Source: Methanomethylovorans hollandica DSM 15978 (lineage in GTDB: Archaea > Halobacteriota > Methanosarcinia > Methanosarcinales > Methanosarcinaceae). Taken from it: a stretch of 64,000 nt of DNA. The stretch spans positions 1,364,001 to 1,428,000 of the forward strand of contig NC_019977.1 of NCBI RefSeq assembly GCF_000328665.1, given 5' to 3'. The translations under genes were made by a program, and so were the position numbers. Of this stretch, positions 14,454 to 33,627 are shown one piece after another. The notes below the pieces were generated by a model, which was not told the DNA's origin, made no database searches, and saw only the letters and a program-made list of their open reading frames with translations. The stretch's first letter is position 1. Every line of letters begins with the position of its first letter.

Positions 14454-16490
14454 CTAAAAATACAGCGCCTTATGCACCGCATCCATCGGATCAGCATAGA
14501 AGGACAGCTGGAATTTGCTCAGCAGGTCTGAAGGCACAGTGCCCAGTTTAGATGTGGATGAGGCAGGTATCAACACCCTCTTAGCCCCGGCATCAAGGGA
14601 GACTTGCAAGAGCTCGGAAAGGTTATCTATATTCAGTATTGAACCTCCTATGGTCATTGTTCCGATGATGGCAGTTTGCTCCTGGACTGGCCTTTCCATA
14701 GCTCCTGAACAGAGACTTATGAAGCCTGCAAGGGCCAGGCCGTCTGACAAACCGACTCCGTACAGGTCCTGTATGTTCATGAAATAGTCATTTTCCTTTG
14801 TGGATATTGATTGGCTTATGGATTTTGCATTTGCCTTGAAGTAGTTGATAGCAGTCCTTATGGACTCTCTGGCCTTTGAATTAGAGCTTAAACCGGAGGG
14901 TTCGTATTTACCTGTACCTGAGACAACCTGCAGTTCTGTTTTATAAACGCCTATCTTCCCGGAATCGGTTGCTGACACAGCATAGACCTGGCCGGGTTTT
15001 GTAAGACCCGGAGGAATGATCTTATTACCACTTATTTCGGGGACATTGACAAAGTGCTCTTCCATGTTATCATTGTCAATATAGGAGAAGTTAACATCGA
15101 AGAATTCCATGCCTCCCATCCTCTTCAATTGCTCCTTGACCCTTCTTCTCCCTACAAGTGCATACTCGAGGATCTCCCTAGCATCCTCTTTTGTGATGTT
15201 CTCATCGGGATATATGAGTTTGGCAAGACCGGAGAATGTTTTCTTGACAGCGATAACATCTCTTTGGTTCAGGTTGTTGCCGAGTTTATAGTATTTGAAA
15301 AGCACATCAGTGAATGACCGTTTTCTCATCTCCCTCAGGAACTCGGCCAGATAATCCACTATGAACCCATATCTGTCAGTGAAGTGCTCGGGTCTGAACT
15401 TGGGAACTTCCCAGCCTGGCAGGTAGTAGTGCATCCTGTCGAAAAATGCACTGTCGTTGTTCATCTCTTCAGGGAAAGGAACGAAGAGATGTGAGGTCTT
15501 GAGCATCGAGGAGACGCTCTGGTTGATGTTGCCTACGAATACAATGGACGCATTGGCATTTATCTGGTCCTTGCCACGGGCAAAGGAGCCGGATGCCATG
15601 TAGTCTTTCATGATCTGTATGCCATCCTTATCCTTGAACTTGATACCTGCAACCTCGTCAAAGGCTACAACATCCCACAGGCCAACGAGCCCGACCTGCC
15701 GTGTACCCATATTGTAGAATAGGTTGGCGACAGTTGTCTGCCCGCCTGAGATAAGGATGGAATTAGGGGATATTTCTTTGAACACGTGGGATTTGCCTGT
15801 GCTCCTTGGACCAAGTTCACAGAGGTTGTAGTTGTTCTCTATCAAAGGAACTAGCCTTTCCATCAAATGCCATTTTGCAGGAGTTTCCAGTTGAGTAGGC
15901 TCCATGCCTATGGACCGCAAGAGCACATCTATCCATTCGTCCTTGGTAAAGTTCTTCCGCTGATCAATGATCTCTGAGATGTTGATGTTGGGGATCTGTA
16001 TGGGTTTGAGGCTTGCAATGACAAAAGGAGAAGGCAGCATTTCAGCGCTGTATTCCATTTTAATGATGCACCAGATGCCACCGCCCAGCAGTTTGTCGTA
16101 CTTTGTGACGTATTCCGGGTCTACCTGCACCTTGGAAAGTCCCAAGTGTGAAAAAACAGCTTCGTAGATGTCTCTTTTTTCATTCAGCTTTACGGAGACC
16201 TTATCGATGATGGTATAGTAACCTGTTTCCCGTATCTTGGATTTGATCTTCTCTGCCTCATCAGGACGCACGTAGTTCTCTGAGAGGATGTTCTTGACTT
16301 TCCTGACACCCTGCTCTATGAGTTCTTCGTCATCGGTAGCGCAATTCGCACCCAGCAGGTATTCCAGGACGTAGACAGGGACATTGTGGCCTACTTTTAC
16401 CAGCTTTGTCAGGTCTTTCCTGACCACTCTGCCCTGGAAATATGTGTTCAGTTTCCTGTCAGTTGTTATGTCTGTGTCTGCTTCTGGCAT
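14454..16490 (-). CDS. brxL: BREX Lon-like AAA+ protein BrxL
   Basis: Last gene of the BREX cluster. The 678-aa product has an N-terminal DNA-binding-like region, an AAA+ motor with Walker A GPRSTGKSH near residue 225 and Walker B VVAFDEVAG near 275, and a C-terminal Lon-protease-like domain. In the Lon-like part the segment that carries the catalytic serine in true Lon (DGPSAG) reads DGLALAG here, so proteolytic activity is not expected; this agrees with BrxL being a DNA-binding AAA+ ring rather than a protease. It follows pglZ after 29 bases in the same direction and is probably in the same transcript. The length is in the family's normal range. Confidence 0.93.
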   Translation of the reverse strand: MPEADTDITTDRKLNTYFQGRVVRKDLTKLVKVGHNVPVYVLEYLLGANCATDDEELIEQGVRKVKNILSENYVRPDEAEKIKSKIRETGYYTIIDKVSVKLNEKRDIYEAVFSHLGLSKVQVDPEYVTKYDKLLGGGIWCIIKMEYSAEMLPSPFVIASLKPIQIPNINISEIIDQRKNFTKDEWIDVLLRSIGMEPTQLETPAKWHLMERLVPLIENNYNLCELGPRSTGKSHVFKEISPNSILISGGQTTVANLFYNMGTRQVGLVGLWDVVAFDEVAGIKFKDKDGIQIMKDYMASGSFARGKDQINANASIVFVGNINQSVSSMLKTSHLFVPFPEEMNNDSAFFDRMHYYLPGWEVPKFRPEHFTDRYGFIVDYLAEFLREMRKRSFTDVLFKYYKLGNNLNQRDVIAVKKTFSGLAKLIYPDENITKEDAREILEYALVGRRRVKEQLKRMGGMEFFDVNFSYIDNDNMEEHFVNVPEISGNKIIPPGLTKPGQVYAVSATDSGKIGVYKTELQVVSGTGKYEPSGLSSNSKARESIRTAINYFKANAKSISQSISTKENDYFMNIQDLYGVGLSDGLALAGFISLCSGAMERPVQEQTAIIGTMTIGGSILNIDNLSELLQVSLDAGAKRVLIPASSTSKLGTVPSDLLSKFQLSFYADPMDAVHKALYF

Positions 16491-16519: not shown

Positions 16520-19132
16520 TCAGAAGTCATCTGCTATCAAGAGGTCCACTTCAAAGGGTATGGGATCGATGATGTCCTTGGTGATCTCTGTAGGGTCTGC
16601 GTCTAGCAGGCGTATGTAGTAGAACTTGTTCTCTACTTCGCCGGTTAAAGTGAGGGTGACTTTGTACTGTCTTTCTGCTGGCTCATCAGATGAGCTTTCA
16701 GCAATAACAAGCTTTTCATCGCTTACCTTGAATTCGTTCCCGTCCCTGTTCCAGAGAGCTACTTTGAACCTTCTGGGTTGCAGTTTATCCGTCACTTTTT
16801 CGGTCTGCAGGATGTTTATAGAGAACGGGCTGCTTGTTATCTTCCGGCTTGCGTTGGTTACGGTCAGACCGACTTTGCCGTACTTAATGCCTTTTCTTTC
16901 AAGATCTGCAGTCTTGTTGTAGGAGTACTTGAGTACCGGGATGACTATCTCCTGGGGTGCAGCTCCACCATGTACGAAGTTCTTGTTGCTGCCCTGCATC
17001 TTGAACCTGAGGTCTGCCTGGGGTACGTATGCGAACATCGTTTGCCCGGATTTGATGATATAATCCATGTTGAACTTGTGGACGTTCATGAGGTCAACAT
17101 TCTGCTCGCTCAGGATGAATCGCTTGCTGGATGCGATGATCTGCTGCTTGTCAAAACCACCGGTCTCAACTTTATCGACGTTTTCCAATTCATCTCTTTG
17201 GTAGATGAAACCATGGTCTGCTGTTATCAGGATGTTGTTCAGTATCTGGAAATTGGTGAGTTTTTCGATGATCTTTTTGATATCTGAGATGGTATCCTCG
17301 GCTGCATCGAAGACTTCATGCTCCGAAGCGAAATGGTCTCCTCTGGCGTCGATCTTGTCGTGGTAGATATAGAAGAGCCTTGTGCCTTTGAATCGTTCAC
17401 GGGCTTCGTCTCTTTTGATGTTCATCAGTTCATCATAATCTATAGCAACGGAGTCCTTTGTTATTTTTTCCAGTATCTTTCCTCTGTTAGCTGTGCCTTC
17501 GGTGCTGATGCCATCTGCAAAGACTGATTGGTTGTTGTATTCCAGTCTGTCATGGGGAAGCAGGCTTGCCATGCCGAGTTTTGTGTAAGAGGGGAGGGAT
17601 CCTGCCATGCACTTTAATTCGACTGTGCCCCTTGTGTCCTTGTTCAGGACTTCCTGAAGCTCTGCAGCTACTTCATAGCGCATGGCATCCGAAATTATGA
17701 CGGCTATCTTGTCCTTATCATTACGGGTGATGATGTTCTTCACGTAGAGCTTATAGAACTCGTCCTGCCGGTCGATGAGCTCTATGTTCCATCGTCCTTC
17801 CATTTCACTTGTGATAAGCTGGCTCCAGCGTGTGAGCAGTTTGTCAAGGAGCCTGTTGTTGTACAGTTTTTCCACAAGGTCTTTGGTGGGTTTGAGGATC
17901 TCTTTTTCCTTGTCCTTGTCGTAGTGATAGTAGAATTTGCGATAATAATAGTCCATCAGGTAATAGCGTTCGGTGTAGTTTCTGAAGAACTTAGTGAGAT
18001 TCTGCTCGCTTATGTTAGTTGCATCGAACTCCTTTGCGAACTGGTGCAGTTTCAATGCATATTCCAGGGAATTGTAGATGTTCTGGAACCTGGAGTACCA
18101 GTGTTTTGTCTTGCGGTTGGTTATCCAGCCAAGATATGTATCGAAATCTTCTTTGCCGTTCTGGAGTGCTTCGGCTATCTTTCGGATGATGCTTTTGTCA
18201 AAGAGGTCAAGGGATTCTGCTTCGATGTATTTGGAGACTTCATGCTTTTGTATCTCGTTCACGAGGTACTTTTGAAGCGTGCTATCGCCTGCAAGCAGTT
18301 GTTCGCAGTACTCGTCAAATACTGTGGAGTCTCTGGAGTTGTCCATCCAGCTTCTGATGAAGATCTCACATTCATTACTCAGGGAGTTGCTGTACGCTTT
18401 GTACTTCTTGAGATCAAGGTTCGTGTTCCTTGTTATGTGGGTTATGATGAAGCTCAGAAAGAGCTTCTTCAGCGTAGGCTCTTCTGGCTGGTATCCGAAG
18501 TGCCTGTGCATCATGTCCCAGAAATCATCGGCAAACTCGAACTTAGTGATCTCTTCCCATGCCGTGTTGGTGCTCTCATCCAGGGAATCGATCAGTACTT
18601 TGCGTACTATTTCCTTCAGGTCCGTGGTCGCAGAGCCGGAAAGCACTGCCAGGAAACCATGTATGAACTCTTCTTCTTTCCAGTGCTTTTGATATAAGCG
18701 GTTAAACGGAGTGACCCTTTTCTTGCTTGCGAAGAACTGCTGGTGCTTGTCCAGGAATCTGTCCAAGTCATAGCCCTCTATCTCGAACTCACTCTTGATA
18801 TCTGATATCCTGCTGTTCTCAAATCGTGATGAATAGAGCTGTATGTCCAGCAGCCAGTTGGCTTCGGGGTCCCGTTCCGCCTCACCTGAATAGATGAGAT
18901 AACTAGAAGTCGTATCATCCGTCTCCAGCAGCTTCTTGGTGGCAAAGAAATTGTTGTGCAGGATATGCAGCTTTATCCCCTTTTCTGCCAGAGCGCCGCG
19001 TATGTGTGCAAGACCTTCCTCATCTGCGGTCCTGTCCTTATCATACCAGAAGACGATCTTCCTCTTCTCGAAGTCGCTGAGAGTTTCGAACTTCTTAAGT
19101 ATGCTCTGGGTGGTCTTTTCGGGATTTAACAT
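16520..19132 (-). CDS. pglZ: BREX alkaline-phosphatase-fold protein PglZ
   Basis: An 870-aa protein with the PglZ core: VIISDAMRYEVA near residue 475 and ITADHGFIYQRDE near 634, the two metal-binding motifs of the alkaline-phosphatase superfamily. A helical N-terminal half precedes the core and a beta-rich C-terminal domain (SKRFILSEQ, HGGAAPQEIVIPVLKY) follows it, as in PglZ type A of BREX type 1. PglZ is essential for BREX; its substrate is unsettled. It lies between rloB (39-base gap) and brxL and is read in the same direction. Confidence 0.93.
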   Translation of the reverse strand: MLNPEKTTQSILKKFETLSDFEKRKIVFWYDKDRTADEEGLAHIRGALAEKGIKLHILHNNFFATKKLLETDDTTSSYLIYSGEAERDPEANWLLDIQLYSSRFENSRISDIKSEFEIEGYDLDRFLDKHQQFFASKKRVTPFNRLYQKHWKEEEFIHGFLAVLSGSATTDLKEIVRKVLIDSLDESTNTAWEEITKFEFADDFWDMMHRHFGYQPEEPTLKKLFLSFIITHITRNTNLDLKKYKAYSNSLSNECEIFIRSWMDNSRDSTVFDEYCEQLLAGDSTLQKYLVNEIQKHEVSKYIEAESLDLFDKSIIRKIAEALQNGKEDFDTYLGWITNRKTKHWYSRFQNIYNSLEYALKLHQFAKEFDATNISEQNLTKFFRNYTERYYLMDYYYRKFYYHYDKDKEKEILKPTKDLVEKLYNNRLLDKLLTRWSQLITSEMEGRWNIELIDRQDEFYKLYVKNIITRNDKDKIAVIISDAMRYEVAAELQEVLNKDTRGTVELKCMAGSLPSYTKLGMASLLPHDRLEYNNQSVFADGISTEGTANRGKILEKITKDSVAIDYDELMNIKRDEARERFKGTRLFYIYHDKIDARGDHFASEHEVFDAAEDTISDIKKIIEKLTNFQILNNILITADHGFIYQRDELENVDKVETGGFDKQQIIASSKRFILSEQNVDLMNVHKFNMDYIIKSGQTMFAYVPQADLRFKMQGSNKNFVHGGAAPQEIVIPVLKYSYNKTADLERKGIKYGKVGLTVTNASRKITSSPFSINILQTEKVTDKLQPRRFKVALWNRDGNEFKVSDEKLVIAESSSDEPAERQYKVTLTLTGEVENKFYYIRLLDADPTEITKDIIDPIPFEVDLLIADDF

Positions 19133-19789: not shown

Positions 19790-21052
19790 TCAGGATGAGA
19801 TGAAGGGGATTGCTCCATACCTTCCCATCAGGTAACCTTTCAGGATATTCTGGTCTTTACGGACCTGGAATTCCAGCAACGAGTAAAGATTTGTGTTCCC
19901 CAGATCTGCATCTTTTTCAGTGAACCATATCTGATCCCTTCTGAAGAGCTCATCGTTGAGCAAGTTGGTGTTGTGGGTGGTTATTATCAGCTGAGAGTTG
20001 TTCTTATTGTAACTTTCGTCGTAGAAGAGTCTGACCAAGTGATCACTAAGCATTGGATGCAGCTGTAGTTCCAGCTCATCTACAAACAGGACCTGCCCTT
20101 TATTGAGCGCGTTGAGCCAAGGTCCTATCAGAGTGAAAAATCTTCTTGTACCTTCGGATTCCTCGGTATTGAAATCGAATGCTATGTTATGCTTTTTGCC
20201 GTCTTTATCTCTGGCAAGGTGGAATGTATTGATATTAATCTTTTGCATTTTTCCACTGGCTTTGTCAAAGCTTCGTGGCAGATGGTTCAATATGTCTACA
20301 GGAAGGTCTGCCAGATCTATATCCTCTATACTTGTGATAATATCAATAAGACCTAAATCTGCTCTTTCAAGTGATCTCAGGATGGCTTTTTTCGAATCAT
20401 CGTCCTGATTGAGCATTCTGATTGTGTATTCGCCCTGTTCTGATAGTGTCCTTGCACTGATTATTCTCAGGTCTTCCCTGAACCATTTGAAGGCTTCCAG
20501 GGTCTTATCGTAATTCTGCTGTGCGGAGTTGGAGAGATAAAGAACATTGCTCAGGGTTCTCTTAGAGATATCATTCTGAATCCTTTTATCGGTTGTGAAT
20601 TTGAACTCGGTGGTGTTCCTTCTTTCAAATACCAGTGCTTCCCTGTTGTTCGGGTAATAATACAATTCTTCATCAATTATCTTGGTCCTATCATATGAGA
20701 CGGCATAGCTGTACCTGACATTGTTCTTGATAAAAAACACACTGAACCTGCTGGGCTTTGACATACATTCCGGCGTCAGCTTGAATGGCTCAAACGGCAG
20801 CAGGTCCCCATCCTGATTCCTGATGGATGTCATCACCAGGTTCTGCAGGTTGAACATTGCTAAAAGAACATTGCTCTTTCCGGAGGCATTAGCCCCATAA
20901 ATAACAGCGCTTTTCACCAGCCTGTCATTCTTCTTCAGGGCATCCGGTTCAATCAGATTTTCCTCAAGCGCCCTATCGGATGATGCTAATAAACTAAAGG
21001 TGACCTCATCCCTTATCGAACGGAAATTCTCGGCTTTGAATTCGATCAACAT
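19790..21052 (-). CDS. rloA: RloA-like ABC-type AAA ATPase
   Basis: A 420-aa SMC/ABC-like ATPase (AAA_15/21 class). Walker A is GANASGKSN near residue 50, the ABC signature region is ESEGTRRFF near 296, Walker B is LFVDELELQLHP near 318 and the switch histidine is in ITTHNTNLL. The N-terminus MLIEFKAENFRSI is the usual beginning for these proteins. It pairs with RloB directly downstream. Such ATPases are thought to sense invading DNA or phage proteins and release a nuclease partner; that job is inferred from related systems. Placed inside the BREX cluster, between the regulator pair and pglZ. Confidence 0.88.
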   Translation of the reverse strand: MLIEFKAENFRSIRDEVTFSLLASSDRALEENLIEPDALKKNDRLVKSAVIYGANASGKSNVLLAMFNLQNLVMTSIRNQDGDLLPFEPFKLTPECMSKPSRFSVFFIKNNVRYSYAVSYDRTKIIDEELYYYPNNREALVFERRNTTEFKFTTDKRIQNDISKRTLSNVLYLSNSAQQNYDKTLEAFKWFREDLRIISARTLSEQGEYTIRMLNQDDDSKKAILRSLERADLGLIDIITSIEDIDLADLPVDILNHLPRSFDKASGKMQKININTFHLARDKDGKKHNIAFDFNTEESEGTRRFFTLIGPWLNALNKGQVLFVDELELQLHPMLSDHLVRLFYDESYNKNNSQLIITTHNTNLLNDELFRRDQIWFTEKDADLGNTNLYSLLEFQVRKDQNILKGYLMGRYGAIPFISS

Positions 21053-21262: not shown

Positions 21263-21589
21263 TTAGTTGTCGACATTCAGGCGGTCTGAATTAACTTCGA
21301 TCTCGCCGTTTTCCTCTTCATACTTTGAGATTTTCTTATTCAGATCAAGTAACAGTTTTTTAGCTGCCTGCATGGTTAGGATCACCATGTGGTCGCTGTG
21401 ATACACCCATGAATCTTCATCCCGGAATTTTTCATTCATCAGTTCTATTCTTATATCACAGTCGGTTATTGCAACCAACGTATTTGTAGCGTAAGTTCTA
21501 CCAAAGAGTGGAGTCCTTACAACCTGTATCTCTTTTTTTTCCTGCTGTTCTTCAATAGCTTCCATTGTATCCTCCTCATGCTGAAGCAA
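21263..21589 (-). CDS. Small partner of the winged-helix regulator (unknown function)
   Basis: A 108-aa acidic protein without a motif I can name with confidence. Its middle reads RTYATNTLVAITDCDIRIEL and WVYHSDHMVILTMQAAKKLL, a short beta-sheet plus helix pattern reminiscent of DUF3467-type proteins. It begins 14 bases inside the end of the upstream regulator gene, so the two are translationally coupled. Pairs of a winged-helix protein and a protein of this kind appear to recur in Methanosarcinaceae, as far as I remember. It may act as a co-regulator; that is inference. Confidence 0.65.
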   Translation of the reverse strand: MLQHEEDTMEAIEEQQEKKEIQVVRTPLFGRTYATNTLVAITDCDIRIELMNEKFRDEDSWVYHSDHMVILTMQAAKKLLLDLNKKISKYEEENGEIEVNSDRLNVDN

Positions 21590-22154
21590 GTGGTTGATTT
21601 AAGGTCATTGTCTGCTGTGCATATGGCTTTTCTTTTGATGATTTCATTCCGCGTTCTTCTGACCATCGAATAGCACGCTTTTCATGCACTTCAAAAGTTA
21701 TGCTCCCGCATTTTAAAGATTTCCAGTTCAATGTTCTGCAGACCTCAGTTTCAGGCAGATAGGAGAAACATGCGTTCTCTTCGTAAACAATGGGGCCTGT
21801 TTCCTTTCTTATGTCGTCGATCACTTCTTCTTCATCGTCTTCATATCCCGCAACAAAGAAACTGTTTGCAAAAACTGACCCGATTAACGCTTTTACGATG
21901 TTATTATCAGCTAGTTTATAGTAGTTGACGTTTTTCTTCTTTTCTTTTATCTCGATAATCCCGTTATAGATGAGACGGGGAATCTTATGATTCACAGTTT
22001 GCCTAGAAACACCTGTGCATTCGCTTATTTCTGACTGGTTGTAGGCAATATCCGAATTTCCAGATAGAAAATCAATGATCTTAATTTCAGAAGTTTTTCC
22101 TAGAAAATCTTCTAAGGCCGTTTCAAACCCTCCTATGTTAAAAGAATAAGACAA
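21576..22154 (-). CDS. Winged-helix transcription regulator inside the BREX island
   Basis: A 192-aa protein whose first 100 residues form a winged helix: ALEDFLGKTSEIKIIDFL, then the turn ISECTGVSRQTVNHKI, and the wing IEIKEKKKNVNYYKL. The remaining 90 residues (including CFSYLPETEVCRTLNWKS) are an extension that I do not recognise and that most relatives of this regulator type would lack. It is divergent from the small gene at 22237, and their shared upstream region contains a 16-bp palindrome and a pair of direct repeats (22183-22232), likely its own operator. It probably controls rloA-rloB and perhaps the downstream BREX genes. Confidence 0.8.
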   Translation of the reverse strand: MSYSFNIGGFETALEDFLGKTSEIKIIDFLSGNSDIAYNQSEISECTGVSRQTVNHKIPRLIYNGIIEIKEKKKNVNYYKLADNNIVKALIGSVFANSFFVAGYEDDEEEVIDDIRKETGPIVYEENACFSYLPETEVCRTLNWKSLKCGSITFEVHEKRAIRWSEERGMKSSKEKPYAQQTMTLNQPLASA

Positions 22155-22589: not shown

Positions 22590-24335
22590 TCATATCTTCT
22601 CCACCAGCCCCTCGAACTTCGCGTAATTCACTACAACCCCGTCGTCCAGATCCATCTCAATATACGCATCGGCTTTGTTCTTCAGCACTTCATCATAAGC
22701 CATGAGCTCAGCGATCATCTTCTTAAGCCGCACCTTCTCCTGCGCATCCTTACCCATATCCGACTTGATCATCTCTTTCTTGGCGTCCAGCTTACCCTCA
22801 AGCTCCAGCAGGTAATCCGTTCTCATTTTGGCAAGCATTTCCCTGTTGTACCTGTGCATGTAAACAAGCGCATTGAAAGCCCTGCCCTTACCTGAAGTGA
22901 ACAGCCAGTAGATGGGCCTTTTCTTGTACATCTTCAAGTGGTCCTTGTAGAACGACTTCAGGAAATATTCCCGTATCACAGCCTCGGAGGACTTCTTCCC
23001 ATTACCACCCAGAGCCTCGGCAATGAAATCCAGGTTCTCTGAAAGTTGCTCCTTTCCTAAGGCCACCTTGAGGAATTCCTTGAACCTGTCCACAATATCA
23101 TCCTCAAAGTATTCGTCCTCAAGTATGGGTATGATGTTATCGGCATCCGGCATGAAGCTCGGCTCAGGCACTTGATTAAGATAATCCCCTATCTTCTCAC
23201 CCTGATTTGCAAGCACAAGCCCCGGCTTGTCCAGCGAATACCTTCCGAACATGCACCCCACGGAATAGGAGACGAACTCCTTTATCGTATCCGTAAGCAG
23301 CAAAGCTTCCAGCTCTTCCTCGCTCTTCCCTCCATTATAGCGGTAATGAGGATTGCAGGTCAGCGTGATCTCCGACAGCGGCACATCTGGTGTAAGTTCA
23401 TCCTGCAAGCCGTAAGCTTCAATGAAAATACGGTTGTTCTCTTCCTCCAGCCGCTGCATCTCCAGGGTCATTTCCTTCCAGTGAGCACGGATTTTGGTAT
23501 AGGTTTCACGGAGAGTTGGCTGATGGTATTCTGGTTGGAGGAGGGGGAGAGTAGTGAAATCCCAGGAGGTTTCGTAGGAGTCCCAGTCGGATTTTGAGAT
23601 TTCAATTATATTGTGGCAAATAGTGTCAATTGAATCCGCTATTATATCGATCCCAAGAATAGGCAAAACAGATAAGTCTCCTGGCTGAAATGCTAAAGTA
23701 GGGTTTATTACTTTTGCAAAATTCGAGCTAATTTTAGTGCATAAAAATGCAATTAAGAACTTTAAGTGTTCTTGCTTAGGAAATGCAGAGCTTCCGTTTG
23801 TATCAAAAAGAAAACCCCCAGGAGAATAACGCACAGCAAAATACGTAGAACTAATTCTCGACCACTCAAGGCATGGTTTAAAAAAGTCTTTTTCGTTAGA
23901 TATCTTCCAGCCCAAGTTATCCCAAGATAATTGAGGATAGTTCTTTAAGGTTTCAACTTTAATATCATATCCATCATTTTCCCAATTTACTACATTTTCA
24001 TTGTTTCCATACCACCTTCGAAAATCGCCACCTTTGTTGTACGGAAACCACTTTAAACCAGAATCTTTAGCTTCCTGTGAATTTTTAAAACTGAAGCCTA
24101 TTTTATTGTGCCATACTTCAAACCAATACCTTACAAAACGCTCATTGTTCCCTGTTCTCATACCTAGTTTTGGTTTAGCGATAGAACCCAGTGAAGCTCC
24201 TGCTAAAAACGTGTTTCGCATTTTGTCACTCACCCAATAAGCAATCGGACTTCCGGGAATCTTCTTGAAATCAGCTGCAGAGGCGCGGTAGAAGTTGGGG
24301 ACGGGATTGGTTGATAAAGTGTTAGCAATTGTCAT
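22590..24335 (-). CDS. pglX: BREX methyltransferase PglX, C-terminal half (split gene)
   Basis: A 581-aa protein that corresponds to the second half of PglX. It begins at the junction [20 protein letters not shown], a segment that in one-piece PglX directly follows the catalytic domain, then carries the target-recognition-like region ([49 protein letters not shown]) and the helical C-terminus with [17 protein letters not shown]. It has no SAM-binding motif and needs the N-terminal half for activity. Its own start ATG is preceded by AGAGGT, so it is translated separately. The order of homology and the summed length (617+581) point to a clean split with nothing lost. Confidence 0.88.
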
Positions 24336-24337
24336 AA

Positions 24338-24781
24338 TTAACCTCTATTATACCCTATAATGTGACCAGACTGAGGATTAAAACAAGTGTTTAATTCGCT
24401 ACCCACTGGGTAGCGAATTGTATCGATCATCTGTTGAGTAGGCAATTCATCACATGGCTTGTGATGAATTTGCATATTTGCGTTTTCATCTTCAATATCT
24501 CTGTGTCCTCTGTGGTTTGTAGCGGCTACTCTTTCGGTTACATGTTCGATTACTTGTTCGGTAACTTGTTCGCCTACTTGATCGGTAACAAATCTGATAC
24601 AATAGTTCAGCAAGGAAAACTTATGCAACTGGGTCGCTAACTGGATCGGTGATTGGAATATTACTTGGTCCCAGCTTGGTCCTGACTTAGTCCCTACATG
24701 ATCCCAACTTGGTCCCGACTCGGGCTGTGACTTAGTGCCATTTATAGCATCAAGTTCACTAACATGGTGCTGGGGGTTCAT
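24338..24781 (-). CDS. 147-aa frame built of repeat-like linkers, in the pglX gap
   Basis: It overlaps the preceding ATPase gene by four bases (ATGA) and ends two bases before the pglX C-terminal start, so it keeps the operon reading continuous. The sequence is unusual: [19 protein letters not shown] is a duplicated phrase, then [20 protein letters not shown] repeats a five-to-four-residue pattern, and then comes [14 protein letters not shown], the translation of a widespread intergenic CTCTGTGTCCTCTGTG-type repeat. Such pieces are seen as linkers in AlbA_2/GHKL proteins. I read it as a former part or duplicate of that ATPase, or as a coding spacer that tolerates repeats. Whether the protein is functional is unclear. 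Confidence 0.5.
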
Positions 24782-26334
24782 CCATTCTTCACCTTCTTTT
24801 TCCGGGCTAAGAATGCACGACCTTTGTCTGTCAGACGGTATTTTTGCAATCTGCTGCTTGGTTTTTCCGGGATTGTCATCTCGATCAATTCTTCACCAAG
24901 AGCTGGATGGAGATAGTTATTCCTGAAGGTTGGACGGTGCTTGATATTCAGAATGTCACGAAGTTCTCCGGAAGACTTTTCTCCGTCTTGGAGTGATAGT
25001 AATAATTTTAGAATATGATTGTCTGACTGGGTCGGTGACTGGGTCGGTGACTGGGTCGGTGACTGGGTCGGTGACTGGGTCGGTGACTGGGTCGGTGACT
25101 GGGTCGGTGACTGGGTCGGTGACTGGGTCGGTGACTGGACCCCGGAATCTTCTTTGGCTAAATAGCTTTCTGTTGGTACTTCTATAGACTCTGCCAGGTA
25201 GACAATGAACCTCACCCTCATTCCGATTTCAATTATCTCCGGCTGTGGAAGTCCAAGCTCTTCAGCATCCTTAAGGATACGACGGAAACCACTGCCCCAC
25301 TGCTCGATAATGTCAAGTTCCCTGAATACCCGCGCAATAACGCGATTCCTGATCCTTGAGACGCCCTGCTTGACATCCTCGATGGTCATGCCGGGAAGGA
25401 GGATACCGGGGTTCTCGATCTCTATCCTGTCATCAAAGAAGGACACTCTGATAGGTGCACCCCTTTGAGAATAATCTGCATGCACAATAGCATTGACAAG
25501 CGCCTCACGCAGGATCGTAAGGGGAATGCTCCATACATCCTTACGCCTGATCTCAGAAAAATCGGCGCTTCTGAAAGCATGTTTTTTCAGGAACATCATC
25601 ACGGATTCAACAGAGCCTGGAAGGTCTTCGTATATTTCGGTATGGTCGAAAATGTATGCCTTATCCTTTCCCTTGAAACGCCCGCATTGTATCCATGCAT
25701 CCGGGAAATGAAAATCCCTTTTCTTTCCAAAAAGCAGCATAGCGCCTGTGGTCGGAACCAATCTGCCCTGTTCCTTGGTAACAAGTTTAAGCGTGATCAA
25801 TTCCTCTTCGTTCAGCTCCCGTATTCCTTTAAAGCGCTTTTTTGCAATATCAATATCAAGGTCAGCAGAATACAGGTCAGGCATCGGCATCTCATCAAAT
25901 GAAATACCTGAAGCACTTCTCTGAAGCTCGGCAATAAGCTCCCTGTCAGCTTTCCGGTTAGTAGAACCAAGCCTTACATAAACACCATCTAGATGACCTT
26001 CACTTTTGACCCGATGCGGACGTGAACCACTCGGATAGACTTCAACACCCAAAAGGGTCTTACCCTCCACTGTCATCAATTCAACATCTGGAACAAGCCT
26101 TGGGGCAATATGATCCGCAATTATACTGCACAGACGCTCTTCTTCATCAAGCGGATTTGAGACACCTATGATCTCCTTTGTCTCGTCCTCCACCCCTATC
26201 AGCAAACGCCCTCCGGCAGTGTTCGCAAAAGCTACAAGCGTCTTGATGATGTTCTTTGGTGAGGAAATATCACGCTTGAACTCCAGAGTCTTACCCTCAG
26301 GCATGGTAATAAGCTGGGAAATGGGGGGATTCAT
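24778..26334 (-). CDS. AlbA_2 / GHKL-type ATP-binding protein inserted between the pglX halves
   Basis: A 518-aa protein with three parts. Residues 10-130 form an AlbA_2 (Schlafen-type) domain: EGKTLEFKRD, KTLVAFANTAGGRLLIGV, YVRLGSTNRKAD. Residues about 270-360 form a GHKL ATPase region: LREALVNAIVHADYS with the ATP-binding Asn, then VSFFDDRIEIENPG and WGSGFRRIL. A linker of nine SPTQ tetrapeptides separates this from a C-terminal winged helix (SGELRDILNIKHRPTFRNNY). The family is common in restriction loci and is predicted to regulate or bind nucleic acid. The gene starts on the last base of the pglX N-terminal stop (TAATG) and is coupled to it. How it relates to BREX function is unknown. 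Confidence 0.85.
   Translation of the reverse strand: MNPPISQLITMPEGKTLEFKRDISSPKNIIKTLVAFANTAGGRLLIGVEDETKEIIGVSNPLDEEERLCSIIADHIAPRLVPDVELMTVEGKTLLGVEVYPSGSRPHRVKSEGHLDGVYVRLGSTNRKADRELIAELQRSASGISFDEMPMPDLYSADLDIDIAKKRFKGIRELNEEELITLKLVTKEQGRLVPTTGAMLLFGKKRDFHFPDAWIQCGRFKGKDKAYIFDHTEIYEDLPGSVESVMMFLKKHAFRSADFSEIRRKDVWSIPLTILREALVNAIVHADYSQRGAPIRVSFFDDRIEIENPGILLPGMTIEDVKQGVSRIRNRVIARVFRELDIIEQWGSGFRRILKDAEELGLPQPEIIEIGMRVRFIVYLAESIEVPTESYLAKEDSGVQSPTQSPTQSPTQSPTQSPTQSPTQSPTQSPTQSPTQSDNHILKLLLSLQDGEKSSGELRDILNIKHRPTFRNNYLHPALGEELIEMTIPEKPSSRLQKYRLTDKGRAFLARKKKVKNG
25025..25138 (-). repeat. Nine perfect 12-bp repeats encoding an SPTQ linker
   Basis: The unit GACTGGGTCGGT repeats nine times without a mismatch from 25025 to 25132, plus half of a tenth. 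On the coding strand each unit encodes Ser-Pro-Thr-Gln. As the unit is a multiple of three, copy-number change would alter linker length without shifting the frame. Confidence 0.95.
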
Positions 26335-28187
26335 TAAGCCTCCGTTTGCTGGGTAATGTTCCTCACCTGCATGATAGCCTCACGCAGCCATGTATCCTTT
26401 TCTGCTTCCGAGTTTCCATCCACAAGCCGGATATAAGCTCCCTTATACTCAGGATGCTGTGCATTCTCAATAACAAAAGCCGTAGTAGAGACAACCTCGC
26501 CGCCGATACTGTCAAAAGCCCGAGGTCCTAAATGTGCCATGGACAATATAGTATGGTCATCCAGAATGCCCGCTCGGAGTTTCTCATAGGAAGAAAGGAA
26601 CATCCAGCTCTGCATAGTGATCATCGCCACCATGCCTTTCTGCATCGCAAGGTCAAGATTACGATCAATGAACATGGCAAAGAAATCCGATTTACTGTCA
26701 GGATAATTATCCTGAGCGAAGTCCTTGAGCCTCGCATTCATCCCCTTGCCACCCATATACGGTGGGTTGGCGACCACCACATCATACTTGGGGATAAGGT
26801 AATCTGCCTGCTTCAGAGCTTGCAGGACCTTCTGATGAGTGGAAAGAAGAGTGAGGTTCTCTGAAAGGATCTTCGGTTTTGGTAATTGGAGGATGCCTGA
26901 TACATCCTCAGCCTTCGGGCGGATAAGAGAGCCGAAGTTATCAGCTTCATTGAACTGAAGCAGTGTATCCCGAACATCATTGGTGAATAACTCGCTTCCA
27001 ATTGCAGTTATGTAAGCATTGAGCTCATCATCCTCAAAAGCAATGCTTTCCAGTACACATATATTGGGCACTGCAGGCTTGCGGAAGAAGTTACGGTTCT
27101 TTCCCCTTGCCTTCATGGTCAGGGCAAAGGCTGCCAGGTCCCCGGCACGCTTGTCGATCTCGATACCAAAGAGATTGCGGGTGAGGATATTCTCGGATAT
27201 CTCGGAATGGTCGTAGCCCTCCTCCTCGTAGATGGCATACAGCAGATCAAAAGCATACACCAGCATGTGTCCTGAACCGCAGGCAGGATCACATACCCTG
27301 ATGTCCTCCGGGGAATTTATTCTCAGGAAATCCGTTTCATTCTCCTCGGGTCTGATATAATAGTCCATCTGCTCGCACAGCCGTGAACTTGGACGGTTGA
27401 GCATCCACAAACGGCCCAGGGAATTCTCCACCAGATAGCGGACTATCCAGTGAGGTGTGAACAATTGGGTCGCTGCAGGAATGTTCTCCTTGCTGATCTT
27501 CACATTCTTCTTAAGGTCCTTGAACACCTTGTCCTTCTTGGGAGCAATATAATCCTGGTATATCCAGCCGATTATCTCCACTTCCCTCCAGTCATCCACC
27601 GGAATGATCCCGTTAATGTCCTTCACAATAGAATCAACATGCAGCAGCTTCTCAGGGAACAATAGCTCAGTGTAGTCCTCTATCTTCTCGAACATGAAAG
27701 GCATAGTGCTGTGCAGGTAATTACACAACTTCAGGATGAGATACTTGTACAGCTCTTCATCCTTATTCTCAGACCTCAGGTCAAGCACATGATCAGCATC
27801 AAGGTCCAGGAAATCCAGTTCATGAGCGTGTGTGATGATCCCAGGCTCATTCCTGTCAGCATCTTTAGAAGTGAACACCTGCACAGGAAGGTAATCATTG
27901 ACCTCCATGAACTTCAGGGCAACAAAACGGTTGAACCAGGTGTAAGTGACCTCGTCCATCACCTGTTGATAGCCCTTATGTTTGATCTCCCTGACCAGTT
28001 TCTCCCTCTGGTCCTTGAGCTTCTTATTATGGACCTTCCCGCCGATAACTATGGAATCCTCATGTTCGGAATCCACGGGCAGGATCTCCTTGGGGTGGAT
28101 ACCGTAGAAAGCAGCCCTGTCAGCGACCTCCTGAAGCAGCTTATCCCGCACAGTATCCGAGAACTTGATAATGCTTGCCTTATCCAT
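26334..28187 (-). CDS. pglX: BREX methyltransferase PglX, N-terminal catalytic half (split gene)
   Basis: A 617-aa protein with the catalytic domain of the BREX N6-adenine methyltransferase: SAM-binding DPACGSGHML near residue 300, the IEIDKRAGDLAAFAL segment, and the catalytic NPPYMGG near 473. The N-terminus (SIIKFSDTVRDKLLQEVADRAAFYGIHP) and the QLFTPHWIVRYLVENS helix are PglX hallmarks. It stops right after IRLVDGNSEAEKDTWLREAI; in one-piece PglX the protein continues with FYRA, found here at the start of the frame at 24335. It follows brxC after two bases, so both are in one transcript. Confidence 0.93.
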   Translation of the reverse strand: MDKASIIKFSDTVRDKLLQEVADRAAFYGIHPKEILPVDSEHEDSIVIGGKVHNKKLKDQREKLVREIKHKGYQQVMDEVTYTWFNRFVALKFMEVNDYLPVQVFTSKDADRNEPGIITHAHELDFLDLDADHVLDLRSENKDEELYKYLILKLCNYLHSTMPFMFEKIEDYTELLFPEKLLHVDSIVKDINGIIPVDDWREVEIIGWIYQDYIAPKKDKVFKDLKKNVKISKENIPAATQLFTPHWIVRYLVENSLGRLWMLNRPSSRLCEQMDYYIRPEENETDFLRINSPEDIRVCDPACGSGHMLVYAFDLLYAIYEEEGYDHSEISENILTRNLFGIEIDKRAGDLAAFALTMKARGKNRNFFRKPAVPNICVLESIAFEDDELNAYITAIGSELFTNDVRDTLLQFNEADNFGSLIRPKAEDVSGILQLPKPKILSENLTLLSTHQKVLQALKQADYLIPKYDVVVANPPYMGGKGMNARLKDFAQDNYPDSKSDFFAMFIDRNLDLAMQKGMVAMITMQSWMFLSSYEKLRAGILDDHTILSMAHLGPRAFDSIGGEVVSTTAFVIENAQHPEYKGAYIRLVDGNSEAEKDTWLREAIMQVRNITQQTEA

Positions 28188-28189
28188 GA

Positions 28190-31100
28190 TCAGAACAACC
28201 TTATATCATCTGTTTCAAGTAACTTTGCGAGATATGTCCGAAGGTCTTTAAGGTACCTATCAAGTTCTTCTTCAGAAGCGATCTTATCCTTTGACTTAAA
28301 AAGCGAAGTATCTTTAATGAACTTTACAGACCTGACATGAACAGAAACCTCACCCGAACCAGATTTTGGTTCCTTTATGATCTGCAATTGTTTGCTGATC
28401 TTGTCATAAGCCTCACTCTGAAGTGAATTCAATCTAGGAGACTGCGCCTGAACATATGTACAGTCTTCTGCCTGTGAAATACGCAGTTTGAGGTCAGTGA
28501 ACGGTTTCATAACGGAATCCTTGAATTCCTGGTTAAATAACGTATGATGACCCATTTCCTTTTGAAGATCAGCTACTATTGAATCTATTTCTTTGAATGC
28601 TGCTTCCTTTAAGTCGGAAAGAGCAGTAGAAAGGGCACTTTCAATGCTTGCTTCCAGCGGGGGCAGTGACTTGATCTCGAAGTAAGGTTCCTTTGACCCC
28701 AGGATAGCTTCAACATCCCTAACTTTTGACTTTGTTTCATCGTCCATGAACTGCCTGTCACGGGTGTAATTATCGATCTTCTTCAAAAGCCGCCTGAAGA
28801 TCTCCACCTGCTGACCCCCGAAGAAAGAGATAACAGGTTCAACATCATACCGCAATTTCACTAGCTCTTCCTTTTCATCGGAGATCTTCTGCAGGAAAGC
28901 AGACGGGTCTGTGGTATTGAGTATCTGTTTGAGGAAACCAGCATAGGCTTTGACCTCATCATTTCCCGGGAATCTCTTTTCCTCTTCGTACTTACCTGAT
29001 ATCTGCTCTATCTTGATAAACTCATCATTGAGCAAAGAATGTGTGAAATCAAAGAGATCGTTCTCCTTCTCAGGGATATTTGTCTTATCAAATACCTCCC
29101 TCAGGATCGACCTGACTATTCTCATGACCTCGGCATTCGCTTTTTCACGTATCTCCACCACAAGCTTATCAGCGTAATCCTTTCTTGTAAGATACCTCAC
29201 CACTTCTTCAGCATTGGGTTTCTTAAGAACAAGATACGTCTTCTGATACCTGAGCTTGATCTCATCACTTGCGAACAGCGTAGCAACGAGACCCGATACA
29301 GTAAGCTCCTTCCATCCATACGGTTTGCGCCTGAACTTATCCTTGATATCTTGCATTACAACGCTGTCGTTCCTCTGGTGTTTTAGACTCAGATGATCGA
29401 GAACTTCCTTAAGGGCAAGTTTATTGGTATCCGATCTTTCAAACCCGAACTTTTCCAGGTCATCCGCCTGCAACACCTTTAAGATCTCACTGTCAGATTC
29501 GAAATCCTTGGTCACGTAACCTGCTTTTTTGTACACGTTCTCATAGAGCAGATCCAGACCACATGTTATTCTCTCTTTAGGTTTTTTCTTCTCAATGCTT
29601 GTGACTTCCTTGCCGTCCACAAAGACCCTAGCTTCGGAAATACCGCTTTCCATAGACTTCTTTGCATCCAGACGCAAGTTTTCCTCATCACTTCTTTTTT
29701 TACTGAGGATCTCCTTGACCTCACCTATATTGGTATTGGAAGTGTTCTGCTTAAGGTATTTATCGATCTTCAGATAATTGCGTATCTGGTCTACGAATTC
29801 GGAATCCGCATGAGTGATGAACAGCAGAGTGTCAGTGGAATCTATATTGCTCAGATTGTCGCCATACAGTGACCGCTGGCTACTGCCTCTTAGCACATCA
29901 TCAGATAAAGGTGTCAGGAACTTTATGGTCAGATCCGCACCAGCCACAGGTTTTGTTTTATCGTCAATGGCCTTGTTGAACTTGTAATCCTTGTGTTTTG
30001 TCGGGCATATCTCATTGGACTCAAACACATACTCGAATATCTCATCAAGAATCTTGTGTTTCTCGATATCGATATTCTTTATTTCCCTATTGATCTCCTG
30101 CTCCTCATTTGTAAGGAAATAGAATCTATCTCCAGATTTGTGTATCAAGGTCTGGCTCTCAAGCCTCTGCAGTGATCCGGCGATCCTGTTCTTAAGAGCA
30201 CGTTTATCCTCATCTACATGGGATACGGACAACACCACCAGGTTGTCAAGGCTTGGCTGCAGCTCCTTCACATGCCTGATCATGAAAAGTATCTTCAGCA
30301 CATCACAGTCCCCATCCTCAAGACAATCATTGTCCTTTGCCTGCTCGATTGTACGAGTTATAATAGGATCAAGGAAGCTCTCAATGGTGCTGTAGAAAGT
30401 ATAGAACGGTACCAGAATTCCCATATCGTCTTCAGCATATTGCTCAGTAGCCTCTTTGAAGGCACTGAGCATGGACCGCTCACCTTTCGCTAAGTGCTTA
30501 CCTGTAAAACCGGTCTGTCGTATCTTATCGAACACTTTCTGCAGAATAAAGAACTGGTAAGGCACATAGGGATACACGTCCACAAAATCATCGTTCCCTT
30601 TATACAGCTTCATTTCAGCCCCGCCGGGGGAGAAGGTCAACAGGTTCTTAAGGATGGTCTTCTTTTCCTCATGATACAAAGATAAGGTTTCCTCATAGAC
30701 CTGTTTCTTCGCAAGTATCCTCTTCTTGATGACCTCGTCTACATTGGCACTGGAAAGGCTCAGACGTGTATCAAAACGCCCCTGGATCTTAGAAAAGTCA
30801 TAACCTTTCACTTTTTCCTTGGTCACCGCATCGATATCAGCCTGGGAAGTAACGACCACCCATGCTTTACCTGCAAGTTTCGTACCCAGTTCCTCAACAA
30901 TGGTCTGCAGGTTCAGCATCAGGTCACTGTTTTCACCAATATACTGCCCGATCTCATCGATCAGAAAGATCACCTGATGATCCTTACCCTTGGAATCACA
31001 ATACTTCTTCACCTTCTCAGCGAACTTCTCCACACTGAAATGATAAGTACTGCCATCGGACTGGAACAGCCTTTCAAGTGATTCCTTGCTCTGGTATCCA

Positions 31101-31762
31101 CAATTTACAAGCGCCTCGATGATATGGTCCTGCTCAAAAACATAAGTATCCCTTTTCTCCTCCCAGGATTCCCCATTGAGCTGCCTGAACTCATCCTTGA
31201 ACTTATCATACAGACCTTTGTTCACAAGGTCCTCTTCCATATCAGCGATCCACAACACATCCCCATAGAAACCCCTTTTCTCATTGAGCACCCGCATGAG
31301 AATGTTAACGATCAGCTCATCGCTTCTGTTCAATGTGTTAGCCTTTGAATCAATGTTGAAGAGAATTACATCCTTTGTCCCAAAAGTAATTGCCTGCTCG
31401 ATGGTATTCAGTAACTGAGGGTCATCTATTTTCTCCCTGAAGAAATCCAGTGCACTCTTACCTTTTACTACCTGATTTTCCAGCAGGTAGGACAACATCT
31501 TGATAAAATGCGATTTACCGGACCCGAAGAAACCTGAGACCCATACTCCGGTCTTATCGGTAGGCTCGGACATTGCATGGAGATACCTATCAAAAAAGGT
31601 GTCCAGATGCTTCAATGTCTCTTTGGTTACAACATATTCATCCAGTTCAGTATATACGCTGTCTTCATCATATTGATCTACTTTAATAACACCGTTGATC
31701 TCTCTTCTGATGTCTTTTTGGAATAGATCATGTATCTTTATTGCAGCAGTCATATCGATCAC
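28190..31762 (-). CDS. brxC: BREX P-loop ATPase BrxC
   Basis: A 1190-aa ATPase. Walker A GFFGSGKSHF lies near residue 73 and Walker B FLIDEIGQYIG near 264, both in the usual BrxC positions, followed by a long helical C-terminal part with coiled-coil character. It has the full family length (about 1,200 residues). BrxC is thought to be a DNA-associated motor or scaffold required for BREX defence and methylation. It lies 19 bases after brxB and two bases before pglX, which is the standard order. No damage is seen. Confidence 0.94.
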   Translation of the reverse strand: MIDMTAAIKIHDLFQKDIRREINGVIKVDQYDEDSVYTELDEYVVTKETLKHLDTFFDRYLHAMSEPTDKTGVWVSGFFGSGKSHFIKMLSYLLENQVVKGKSALDFFREKIDDPQLLNTIEQAITFGTKDVILFNIDSKANTLNRSDELIVNILMRVLNEKRGFYGDVLWIADMEEDLVNKGLYDKFKDEFRQLNGESWEEKRDTYVFEQDHIIEALVNCGYQSKESLERLFQSDGSTYHFSVEKFAEKVKKYCDSKGKDHQVIFLIDEIGQYIGENSDLMLNLQTIVEELGTKLAGKAWVVVTSQADIDAVTKEKVKGYDFSKIQGRFDTRLSLSSANVDEVIKKRILAKKQVYEETLSLYHEEKKTILKNLLTFSPGGAEMKLYKGNDDFVDVYPYVPYQFFILQKVFDKIRQTGFTGKHLAKGERSMLSAFKEATEQYAEDDMGILVPFYTFYSTIESFLDPIITRTIEQAKDNDCLEDGDCDVLKILFMIRHVKELQPSLDNLVVLSVSHVDEDKRALKNRIAGSLQRLESQTLIHKSGDRFYFLTNEEQEINREIKNIDIEKHKILDEIFEYVFESNEICPTKHKDYKFNKAIDDKTKPVAGADLTIKFLTPLSDDVLRGSSQRSLYGDNLSNIDSTDTLLFITHADSEFVDQIRNYLKIDKYLKQNTSNTNIGEVKEILSKKRSDEENLRLDAKKSMESGISEARVFVDGKEVTSIEKKKPKERITCGLDLLYENVYKKAGYVTKDFESDSEILKVLQADDLEKFGFERSDTNKLALKEVLDHLSLKHQRNDSVVMQDIKDKFRRKPYGWKELTVSGLVATLFASDEIKLRYQKTYLVLKKPNAEEVVRYLTRKDYADKLVVEIREKANAEVMRIVRSILREVFDKTNIPEKENDLFDFTHSLLNDEFIKIEQISGKYEEEKRFPGNDEVKAYAGFLKQILNTTDPSAFLQKISDEKEELVKLRYDVEPVISFFGGQQVEIFRRLLKKIDNYTRDRQFMDDETKSKVRDVEAILGSKEPYFEIKSLPPLEASIESALSTALSDLKEAAFKEIDSIVADLQKEMGHHTLFNQEFKDSVMKPFTDLKLRISQAEDCTYVQAQSPRLNSLQSEAYDKISKQLQIIKEPKSGSGEVSVHVRSVKFIKDTSLFKSKDKIASEEELDRYLKDLRTYLAKLLETDDIRLF

Positions 31763-31781: not shown

Positions 31782-32372
31782 CTAAGGATCGGTGCCATCA
31801 TTGATCAGCCTGAAGGCACGATAATAGTTCGCATCCTTAAACTTACCGAATAAACTAAGGTCAAAACCACTGTATTTGCCGGGATAGAAGGCGATAAGAG
31901 GAAGATTGCCCGATACAGGCTGCAGATTGTTTAAAATGGAATGTGAACGCACTATCGGCCAGGCCTTACCGATACCTGTCAGGAAGATCATCTGGAAATT
32001 CCCATTTTTCTCCATTTTAGCCTGAATAGCATTTTTCAGTATTTCAGGCTTAAGCATGAGCTTCAATTTCTTGAGCAATTCATCAGAACCCTTTTTCTTT
32101 TCGAACTGATCGACCTGTTCTATTTTTATTTTATTCTCTATGAGCTCCAGGCAGATCTCATACAGGTCCAGCATTAGAACGTTAATGGATCTCTTCTCCA
32201 GAGATGAGTTGATCTTAAGGATAGTATCCCTAATCAGCAATTCTTTATCAGGAGGATAATCGAATATCCAGAAAGGAACTTCATTACCAAGTCCTTTGGA
32301 TTTGAGAAAATCATCGCTCTGGACCTGCTCCTTCAGTTGCTCTAACCTTTCTTCCAGCTTCATGGGCAGCAT
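31782..32372 (-). CDS. brxB: BREX protein BrxB (DUF1788)
   Basis: A 196-aa protein of the DUF1788/BrxB family, recognised by FWIFDYPPDKELLIRD, the LTGIGKAWPIVRSHSILNNL core and the ending FYPGKYSGFDLSLFGKF. I place the start at the ATG at 32372 because AGGT precedes it by eight bases; in-frame TTG codons lie just upstream. It is the first gene of the BREX operon here, with a TTTAAATA TATA-like box at about 32385-32400. In type 1 BREX, brxA (DUF1819) normally lies upstream; it is absent. Confidence 0.92.
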   Translation of the reverse strand: MLPMKLEERLEQLKEQVQSDDFLKSKGLGNEVPFWIFDYPPDKELLIRDTILKINSSLEKRSINVLMLDLYEICLELIENKIKIEQVDQFEKKKGSDELLKKLKLMLKPEILKNAIQAKMEKNGNFQMIFLTGIGKAWPIVRSHSILNNLQPVSGNLPLIAFYPGKYSGFDLSLFGKFKDANYYRAFRLINDGTDP

Positions 32373-33186
32373 ACAATTCAACCTAAATTTATTTAAACTT
32401 GGTCATATGATTTTGATTGTGGGGTTGTTTGCATTAGCGTGAACATTAATTTATGTTGATGCACCCGATATTGCTAAACACTCCCTTATTTTTCCCCTCA
32501 TCGTTGCTCAGGTGACAGGTAGACAGGCGGTGCCGTGTAGGGAAGAGTAAGCCGGTGGATCTCGTTTTTATAGTAGTCTGCCATGATGCATAGCTATCTA
32601 CCACAATAATATATTTCCAGAAAAGTAATATGATATGGTTAAAGTACAGGGAAACAAAAGTGATAAATCGTTAAGTATCATTTAGTTGTTTTAGGGTATA
32701 TGATGGATCGTGTTACGTAACCCTACTCAGCATCAACACTTTCCCCACTAAAGTGTTCAATGCCTACAACATTTACGCACGACCCATCAAACCCATTTTT
32801 CCTTGGAGTCTAAATCCATTTCTTCCACATAGTTGAGAGAATTATAAACAGTCCTCCCCCAGCTTACAGGAAATGAGAGAATGAAGACAAAACGATGTAA
32901 GCCAGTAGACAGTTTATTTCCCTCATATGAAATTATGTCATTTAAGTTTATTAAGTCATCTATTTTTTATAAAAAATGTAATGAATTTAACAATTTATCT
33001 GTAGGCTCTCATGCCTTTGTAATATAACAAGAATGGAGTTAATAATAATCAAATAATTATAAATACAAATATTCCTTAAGTACTTTTTCCAGTGGTATTC
33101 TGCTGGAAAATCTCATGGCTTTTACACCTGGGACAGTTCATGCAGAACTATAAGTCCTCATAAAATATAACCATGTTTACTTACCA
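32373..33186. other. Spacer upstream of BREX without a brxA gene
   Basis: About 800 bp that contain the BREX promoter at the left end and no gene I can support. No piece resembling BrxA was found in any frame. Stops are frequent on both strands. Confidence 0.5.
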
Positions 33187-33366
33187 ATGCCCAAAAATAA
33201 ACTTATAATTGTTGCTACCTGTCGTTCAGGATTCGAATATGATTTCTTAGAAAAGAGATTACCTCATAACTTAACAATTGAAAGTGTATTTGATAAAGTT
33301 GTTACTTATGATAAAGTTCCAAAATCGCAGGCCCATTTAATTGCGTCCAAGCTTGATATCAACTGA
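33187..33366 (+). CDS. 59-aa hypothetical protein, possibly a truncated gene
   Basis: A short frame with an ATG start and a protein-like composition: KLIIVATCRSGFEYDFLEK at the start, a basic/polar middle and an end KSQAHLIASKLDIN. I recognise no family. Behind its stop, at 33404-33504, another short frame continues with PLLKIVGFLAAYFVNFVRSG and a clean stop, so both may be pieces of one decayed gene. Confidence 0.35.
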   Translation: MPKNKLIIVATCRSGFEYDFLEKRLPHNLTIESVFDKVVTYDKVPKSQAHLIASKLDIN

Positions 33367-33627
33367 AAGGAAGCAGAGTTTGATGGTACTATTGGTTCAC
33401 TTATAATGAAAATCCCACTACTAAAGATCGTGGGCTTTCTGGCTGCTTATTTCGTAAACTTTGTAAGATCTGGTTCTCATGATGTAGGATTTTCTCTCCA
33501 ATAACTTCTTGAGATTTATGATTTTACAGCAAATTGTGTACATTGTTCAATATCATAGAAATTAATAGAGTATAGGGTAAACCTTTATACAACTATTACA
33601 GACTTTAATGTATAAAGGGTGGTCATT
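33367..33627. other. Spacer with a possible gene remnant and the promoter of the VOC gene
   Basis: Contains the short frame at 33404-33504 noted for the previous entry. The AAGGGTGGT at 33615-33623 is the ribosome-binding site of the next gene. Confidence 0.35.

Follow-up and report, generated by a model that had tools for sequence, protein, structure and literature searches.

A hinge-split PglX with putative defence cargo between its halves in the type I BREX operon of Methanomethylovorans hollandica and in other archaea and bacteria

In the methane-producing archaeon Methanomethylovorans hollandica DSM 15978 (genome of 2.7 Mb, two contigs), the methyltransferase PglX of a type I BREX operon was found to be encoded by two open reading frames which meet at the hinge of the one-piece enzyme, with a Schlafen-family gene between them. 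As judged from sequence comparisons, the split PglX is probably (rough probability 0.7) a co-translated enzyme of two polypeptides which reassemble noncovalently and whose hinge serves as a slot for cargo genes. The apparent use of a hinge-split PglX as a cargo slot seems to be new, whereas the embedding of defence genes between genes and the BREX-linked nucleases were already known. A literature search for split pglX found no description, which is not proof of novelty; the embedding preprint (Payne) or REBASE might anticipate part of it. Among restriction-like systems BREX is one of those studied most closely, and descriptions of it place the specificity in one methyltransferase polypeptide; the existence of a natural and recurrent two-polypeptide PglX bears on the evolution of PglX relative to HsdM/HsdS.

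The window (the whole stretch of 64,000 nucleotides that was analysed) was found to contain the operon on the minus strand in the order BrxB, BrxC, PglX-N, Schlafen AlbA_2/GHKL/wHTH gene, 147-codon frame, PglX-C, small HTH gene, AAA_21/AbiLi-like ATPase, PglZ and BrxL (Table 1). The presence of BrxB, BrxC, PglX, PglZ and BrxL in one operon assigns it to type I, and no suitable ORF for BrxA was found upstream of BrxB in the window (32381-33600), in L031 and L037, or in the one-piece relatives L042, L044, L046 and L049. PglX-N and the AlbA_2 gene were found to overlap by 1 nt and the AlbA_2 gene and the 147-codon frame by 4 nt, followed by a 2-nt gap before PglX-C. The first-pass annotation had given these frames and overlaps exactly, and the DPACGSGHM and NPPYMGG motifs as well as the AGAGGT before the PglX-C ATG were found as it had described them. 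The second slot, between PglX-C and PglZ, contained the AbiLi-like ATPase, which is also present downstream of PglX-C in L031, L034, L036 and L037, and an HTH protein (21576-22154), which is also present in L034.

Table 1. Features of the split pglX locus (window positions)
Feature	Position	Strand	Description	Basis
PglX-N	26334..28187	-	617 aa; helical bundle and gamma-class N6-adenine methyltransferase, HsdM-like half	PADLOC PDLC02525, 862 bits over 1-606; Pfam Eco57I/N6_Mtase
Cargo gene	24778..26334	-	518 aa; Schlafen AlbA_2, GHKL ATPase (HATPase_c_4), variable linker, Fic-like_C winged helix	Pfam
Tandem repeat in cargo linker	25025..25138	-	12 bp, in frame, PTQS units	read directly in sequence
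147-codon frame	24338..24781	-	probably a relic with AlbA_2 linker motifs	
AGAGGT	24341..24346	-	Shine-Dalgarno-like site of PglX-C, before its ATG	sequence
PglX-C	22590..24335	-	581 aa; TRD, double-helical spacer, C-terminal region; HsdS-like	PADLOC PDLC02516, 709 bits
Leader of PglX-C	24294..24335	-	short, polar, ~14 residues	predicted disordered
Target recognition domain (TRD)	23526..24248	-	hypervariable; approximate limits	identity comparison between genomes
BrxC	28190..31762	-		Pfam/PADLOC
BrxB	31782..32381	-		Pfam/PADLOC
PglZ	16520..19132	-		Pfam/PADLOC
BrxL	14454..16490	-		Pfam/PADLOC
AAA_21/AbiLi-like ATPase	19790..21052	-	second-slot cargo between PglX-C and PglZ	Pfam/PADLOC

PglX-N was found to align to residues 56-641 of the one-piece PglX 8C45 and PglX-C to residues 644-1211, with nothing missing at the junction, as the first-pass annotation had held; the published PglX hinge comprises residues 654-659 (PMC11341690). 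Both frames scored as PglX in PADLOC, and PADLOC-DB already contains half-length PglX models matching each frame (PDLC02525, 607 positions; PDLC02516, 593 positions), so PglX halves had already been modelled by annotators. Taken together, the two halves have the domains of the one-piece type I BREX PglX/BrxX of Salmonella (8C45) and E. coli (9EWZ) in unchanged order, a total length of ~1,190 residues, and the catalytic motifs as well as the TRD, the spacer and the C-terminal region; they differ in being two polypeptides, each from an ORF with its own start, that join at the hinge and are separated by cargo genes. Enzymes of the PglX/BrxX family characteristically methylate a non-palindromic site of 6 bp. 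The presence of the TRD, the spacer and the C-terminal region in PglX-C was found by PADLOC, by the 8C45 alignment and by fold match. The AlphaFold model of PglX-C was of moderate quality (mean pLDDT 63; TRD mostly 75-90; leader <40), so that its fold matches to 8C45 and 9EWZ add little beyond the sequence match. A short leader also opens other split C halves; at ~14 residues it appears too short for an intein piece, and a split intein was rejected. In this genome a single close N-like and a single C-like sequence were found, and a second intact PglX elsewhere was discounted for G000, G238, G239 and G240, in which no further C-half match was found. The best plasmid BREX matches were annotated as single PglX genes.

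A two-subunit methyltransferase would be the best reading of the split. PglX-N would provide SAM binding and catalysis in the manner of HsdM, PglX-C would provide target recognition together with the spacer and tail in the manner of HsdS, and the two co-translated polypeptides would reassociate across the DNA-binding hinge without a covalent link. A BREX survey describes the N-domain of PglX as resembling HsdM and the spacer as resembling HsdS (PMC12839542), and the split PglX probably works as HsdM-like and HsdS-like subunits. The closest functional parallel is EcoKI, whose M and S subunits are separate and translationally coupled and of which an M-S fusion still works (PMC3510504), so the M/S boundary can be crossed. 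Speaking against a simple reconstitution, the C-terminal domain of Salmonella PglX could not be expressed alone (Went et al., PMC11341690), so the C halves may need co-folding. As in the type I restriction-modification pair of HsdM and HsdS (e.g. EcoKI), the catalytic and specificity polypeptides are separate and translationally coupled; unlike that pair, they belong to the PglX family by sequence (for each half the PglX score greatly exceeds that of every type I model), have BREX proteins as partners and are encoded on either side of long cargo. Such a ready-made split enzyme would allow testing which half contacts BrxB, BrxC or PglZ, and swapping of specificity.

The 147-codon frame, which the first-pass annotation had included in an inserted two-frame cassette, was found to have a dN/dS of 0.6-1.1, i.e. 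no protein-level constraint; a functional small protein was rejected on this ground, and the frame should not be reckoned among the working parts. It had no Pfam or PADLOC match, homologues in three of the fetched genomes and linker motifs in common with AlbA_2 proteins, and it is probably an unconstrained relic, not a selected protein. Its dS (0.11-0.49) was found to be far below that of the flanks in the same genome pairs, with dN/dS near 1, and this low dS suggests recent transfer or recombination.

A search of 238 genomes of the class for a free PglX-N ORF of ~620 residues found this ORF in 11 genomes, including that of the window, followed in all of them (11/11) by the presence of an intact PglX-C just downstream. 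These Methanosarcinales genomes comprised five genus groups and a second family; the nearest PglX relative of the window was that of Methanococcoides sp. EBM-47, listed under the same genus, and the split locus of G120 and G135 was located on contigs >3 Mb, some of the assemblies with the split being single contigs. A search for the same split in related genomes, which had been proposed as a check, thus yielded ten other Methanosarcinales genomes, and these, together with many bacteria carrying the same split, rule out a sequencing error or frameshift. GAGG-like sites were found to precede the C-half start in most of the archaeal split loci. The AlbA_2 gene was found between the halves in 9 of the 11 loci. 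The slot of G025 contained a DUF4062-GHKL gene followed by a remnant resembling the C-terminus of AlbA_2, and the cargo there appears to have been replaced. G135 contained no insert, its N stop and C start being separated by 13 nt with the halves in different frames; the sequence before the C start (GAGGTAGCAAAAC), a short scar, is identical to the last nucleotides of AlbA_2 in L031 and L037, so G135 most likely lost its cargo by deletion while both halves stayed intact and apart.

The first-pass annotation had proposed that the inserted ATPase may control the assembly of the halves; in this reading, the ATPase would decide whether they join and so switch methylation on or off. The ATPase gene is adjacent to the halves and in one operon with them, and ATPases of the GHKL type can undergo conformational changes when they bind ATP, but unrelated proteins were found to occupy the slot in other genomes, the same ATPase family was found outside one-piece PglX in other BREX operons, and G135 has lost the ATPase yet contains both halves. 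The ATPase gene also appears to recombine independently of the PglX halves, as it was found to be 94% identical between L032 and L034 with a dS of 0.19, against a dS of 0.86 for the N half. Since the slot's contents can be exchanged or lost, it is very unlikely that the ATPase controls the assembly of PglX.

To examine the recurrence of the split, an alignment of split N halves was used to scan 84,980 species genomes, and the best 80 of 202 relatives were fetched. The N ORF was found to stop at the hinge in 36 of these best 80 and to break elsewhere in only 4, which is not a chance pattern; the relatives are centred on these queries, close to the PglX of the window, and the resulting 45% of split forms is not a global frequency. 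Under an even-break model, the chance that an interval of 45 residues would contain nine out of thirteen independent breaks is approximately 1e-10, and that it would contain four out of eight approximately 1e-4. The C half was found on the same contig in 31 of the 36 split loci, where it lies on the strand of the N half at a distance of 0.4-5.2 kb downstream and each locus has a single N and a single C half, and the N stop overlapped a start codon by 4 nt (ATGA-type) in 32 of the 36; L071, in which the break falls after the TRD, was excluded from the split counts. The split hosts included Pseudomonas, Halopseudomonas, Zoogloea, Massilia, Rugamonas, Alloalcanivorax, Chlorobiaceae, Hydrogenedentota, Kiritimatiellae, Melainabacteria, Margulisbacteria, an actinomycete bin and Methanospirillum, and a sample of 398 Pseudomonadaceae genomes, likewise centred on these queries and not giving a global fraction, contained 5 split forms among 11 PglX.

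The tree of 96 PglX-N sequences contained the split forms in an archaeal clade (11), a mainly Pseudomonadota clade (17) and a Chlorobiaceae clade (6) and as scattered singletons, and a single split clade was rejected (AU p ~1e-86). Parsimony on this tree required 9 changes between split and one-piece forms, at least 4 of them forced by well-supported branches, in a tree that cannot separate gains from losses of the split.

The TRDs of split PglX were found to be hypervariable, as in one-piece PglX, reaching only 43-51% identity in genome comparisons that give 83-92% for the sequence on either side. The TRDs of split C halves were 62-81% identical to one-piece TRDs of other taxa (L114/L125, 81%; L069/L099, 76%). 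The TRD of the archaeal split locus L034 was 67% identical to a Chlorobiaceae split TRD, with N halves that were 59% identical. These TRD matches, and the lack of a second C-half match in G000, G238, G239 and G240, give indirect support to a split enzyme that may be functional. TRD identity can exceed N-half identity, and TRDs appear to have been exchanged between archaeal and bacterial and between split and one-piece PglX (the window TRD; L034, L069, L099, L056 and L067).

The dN/dS values (Nei-Gojobori) of PglX-N (0.075-0.15), of PglX-C after the TRD (0.07-0.15) and of the cargo ATPase gene (0.13-0.21) were comparable to those of BrxC and PglZ (0.06-0.14), and by this measure (~0.1) both PglX halves are under purifying selection. 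The catalytic motifs DPACGSGHM and NPPYMG of the SAM-binding domain were invariant in all 11 split sequences. The identities of PglX-N and of post-TRD PglX-C were found to co-vary (Spearman 0.89 across split loci; 0.75 in one-piece PglX), so the halves are inherited together, whereas TRD identity did not co-vary. An insertion that splits a normally single gene might also mean a broken gene, in which a defence gene has entered pglX and left a dead enzyme, so that what is kept would be the cargo or the remaining operon genes. Such a loss is highly improbable, given the purifying selection on both halves, the invariant catalytic motifs, the old and diverged split clades, the conserved start signals and the fact that split and one-piece enzymes continue to share one pool of TRDs. 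The earlier claim that the arrangement looks selected and not broken agrees with the retention of the split in 11 archaeal genomes, its recurrence in many bacteria and the co-divergence of the halves.

The genes between the halves were found to comprise Schlafen AlbA_2-GHKL-wHTH, the HEC-02A/B pair, DRT UG5-nitrilase reverse transcriptase, SIR2 and HerA, Shedu, OLD-type ATPase, KilA-N (PDC-S22) and a 751-residue protein without matches, and these families appear to be known or candidate defences. The cargo differed between close relatives: L067 and L070, with N halves 97% identical, contained OLD ATPase and DRT in one and Shedu and DRT in the other, and L078 and L082, with N halves 94% identical, contained HEC-02AB and SIR2-HerA or HEC-02AB and DRT. 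Where PglX is in one piece, AlbA_2 genes were found on its upstream or its downstream side, which makes three slots at the PglX gene when the hinge is included; the hinge appears to be a recurrent slot for defence cargo. The hinge gap would receive accessory defence genes which become joined to the operon by ATGA-type start/stop overlaps, and the gap between PglX-N and PglX-C offers a precise address for finding further defence genes. The 751-residue slot protein (L120, 12657-14909; Methylococcaceae bin), which had no Pfam or PADLOC match, is a candidate defence gene.

Defence genes embedded between the genes of another system have been described in the HEC and PDC work cited in passages of PMC12255303 and PMC12988326. 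The present loci resemble the embedding of Payne et al. in that defence genes lie inside another defence locus, with the HEC-02, Shedu and PDC-S22 families present here; as far as those passages go, the described cases lie between genes, whereas here the slot lies within a normally single gene and the host gene is split at a domain hinge. A neutral reading, which is compatible with a working split enzyme, would be that the hinge simply tolerates insertions, that the split does no harm and that the only gain to the cargo is co-expression. The presence of cargo upstream and downstream of PglX and the persistence of the halves without cargo in G135 favour such hitch-hiking, whereas the repetition at one ~45-residue interval and the conserved ATGA junction suggest more than tolerance, and we consider it possible but rather doubtful.

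The cargo of the window was found to contain the SLFN_AlbA_2, HATPase_c_4 and Fic-like_C domains above Pfam cut-offs, i.e. the AlbA_2, GHKL and wHTH architecture. In 18 AlbA_2 relatives E13 was nearly invariant and E18 and D50 were invariant, residues which may correspond to the Schlafen acidic triad (E..E..D); the AlphaFold model of the cargo ATPase (pLDDT 61) was too poor for a fold search. The BREX survey catalogues BREX-linked accessory nucleases and lists no fewer than 1,017 taxa in which Schlafen-GHKL-wHTH proteins, classed as backup endoRNase, occur near BREX core loci and are linked to BREX or systems related to it (PMC12839542). The inserted gene has the same architecture as those proteins, but no split BrxX appears in the excerpted main text of that survey. 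On the basis of this family resemblance, the cargo here would most likely be co-expressed with BREX as an effector of the second line, probably with nuclease activity, and it may serve as a backup or guard effector.

The guard role would refine the two-polypeptide reading: the cargo would be kept quiet by intact PglX/BREX and released when an inhibitor such as Ocr strikes PglX. Ocr binds PglX (PMC11341690), and a precedent exists in PrrC of a type IC locus, which guards EcoprrI (PMC12707154). The cargo includes Schlafen and OLD-type families and lies in one operon with PglX. AriA senses Ocr. The cargo families are, however, unrelated, which makes one common interface unlikely, and Shedu, DRT and SIR2-HerA are described as stand-alone systems with their own triggers; the guard role is unlikely on balance.

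More broadly, there may be an even chance that BREX repeatedly turns a fused M-S methyltransferase into M and S subunits, the gap acting as a nested and swappable defence island within one ancestral gene, in archaea and bacteria, which would give S-subunit exchange as well as second-line effectors tied to the expression of the methyltransferase. A Sphingobium conjugative plasmid (L189, AP027317.1; 6329-8001) was found to contain a gene pair of HEC-02-like sizes between BrxC and a one-piece PglX. The linker repeats of cargo relatives were found to contain other four-residue units (RLES, TEHV, GEQV and VAGE).
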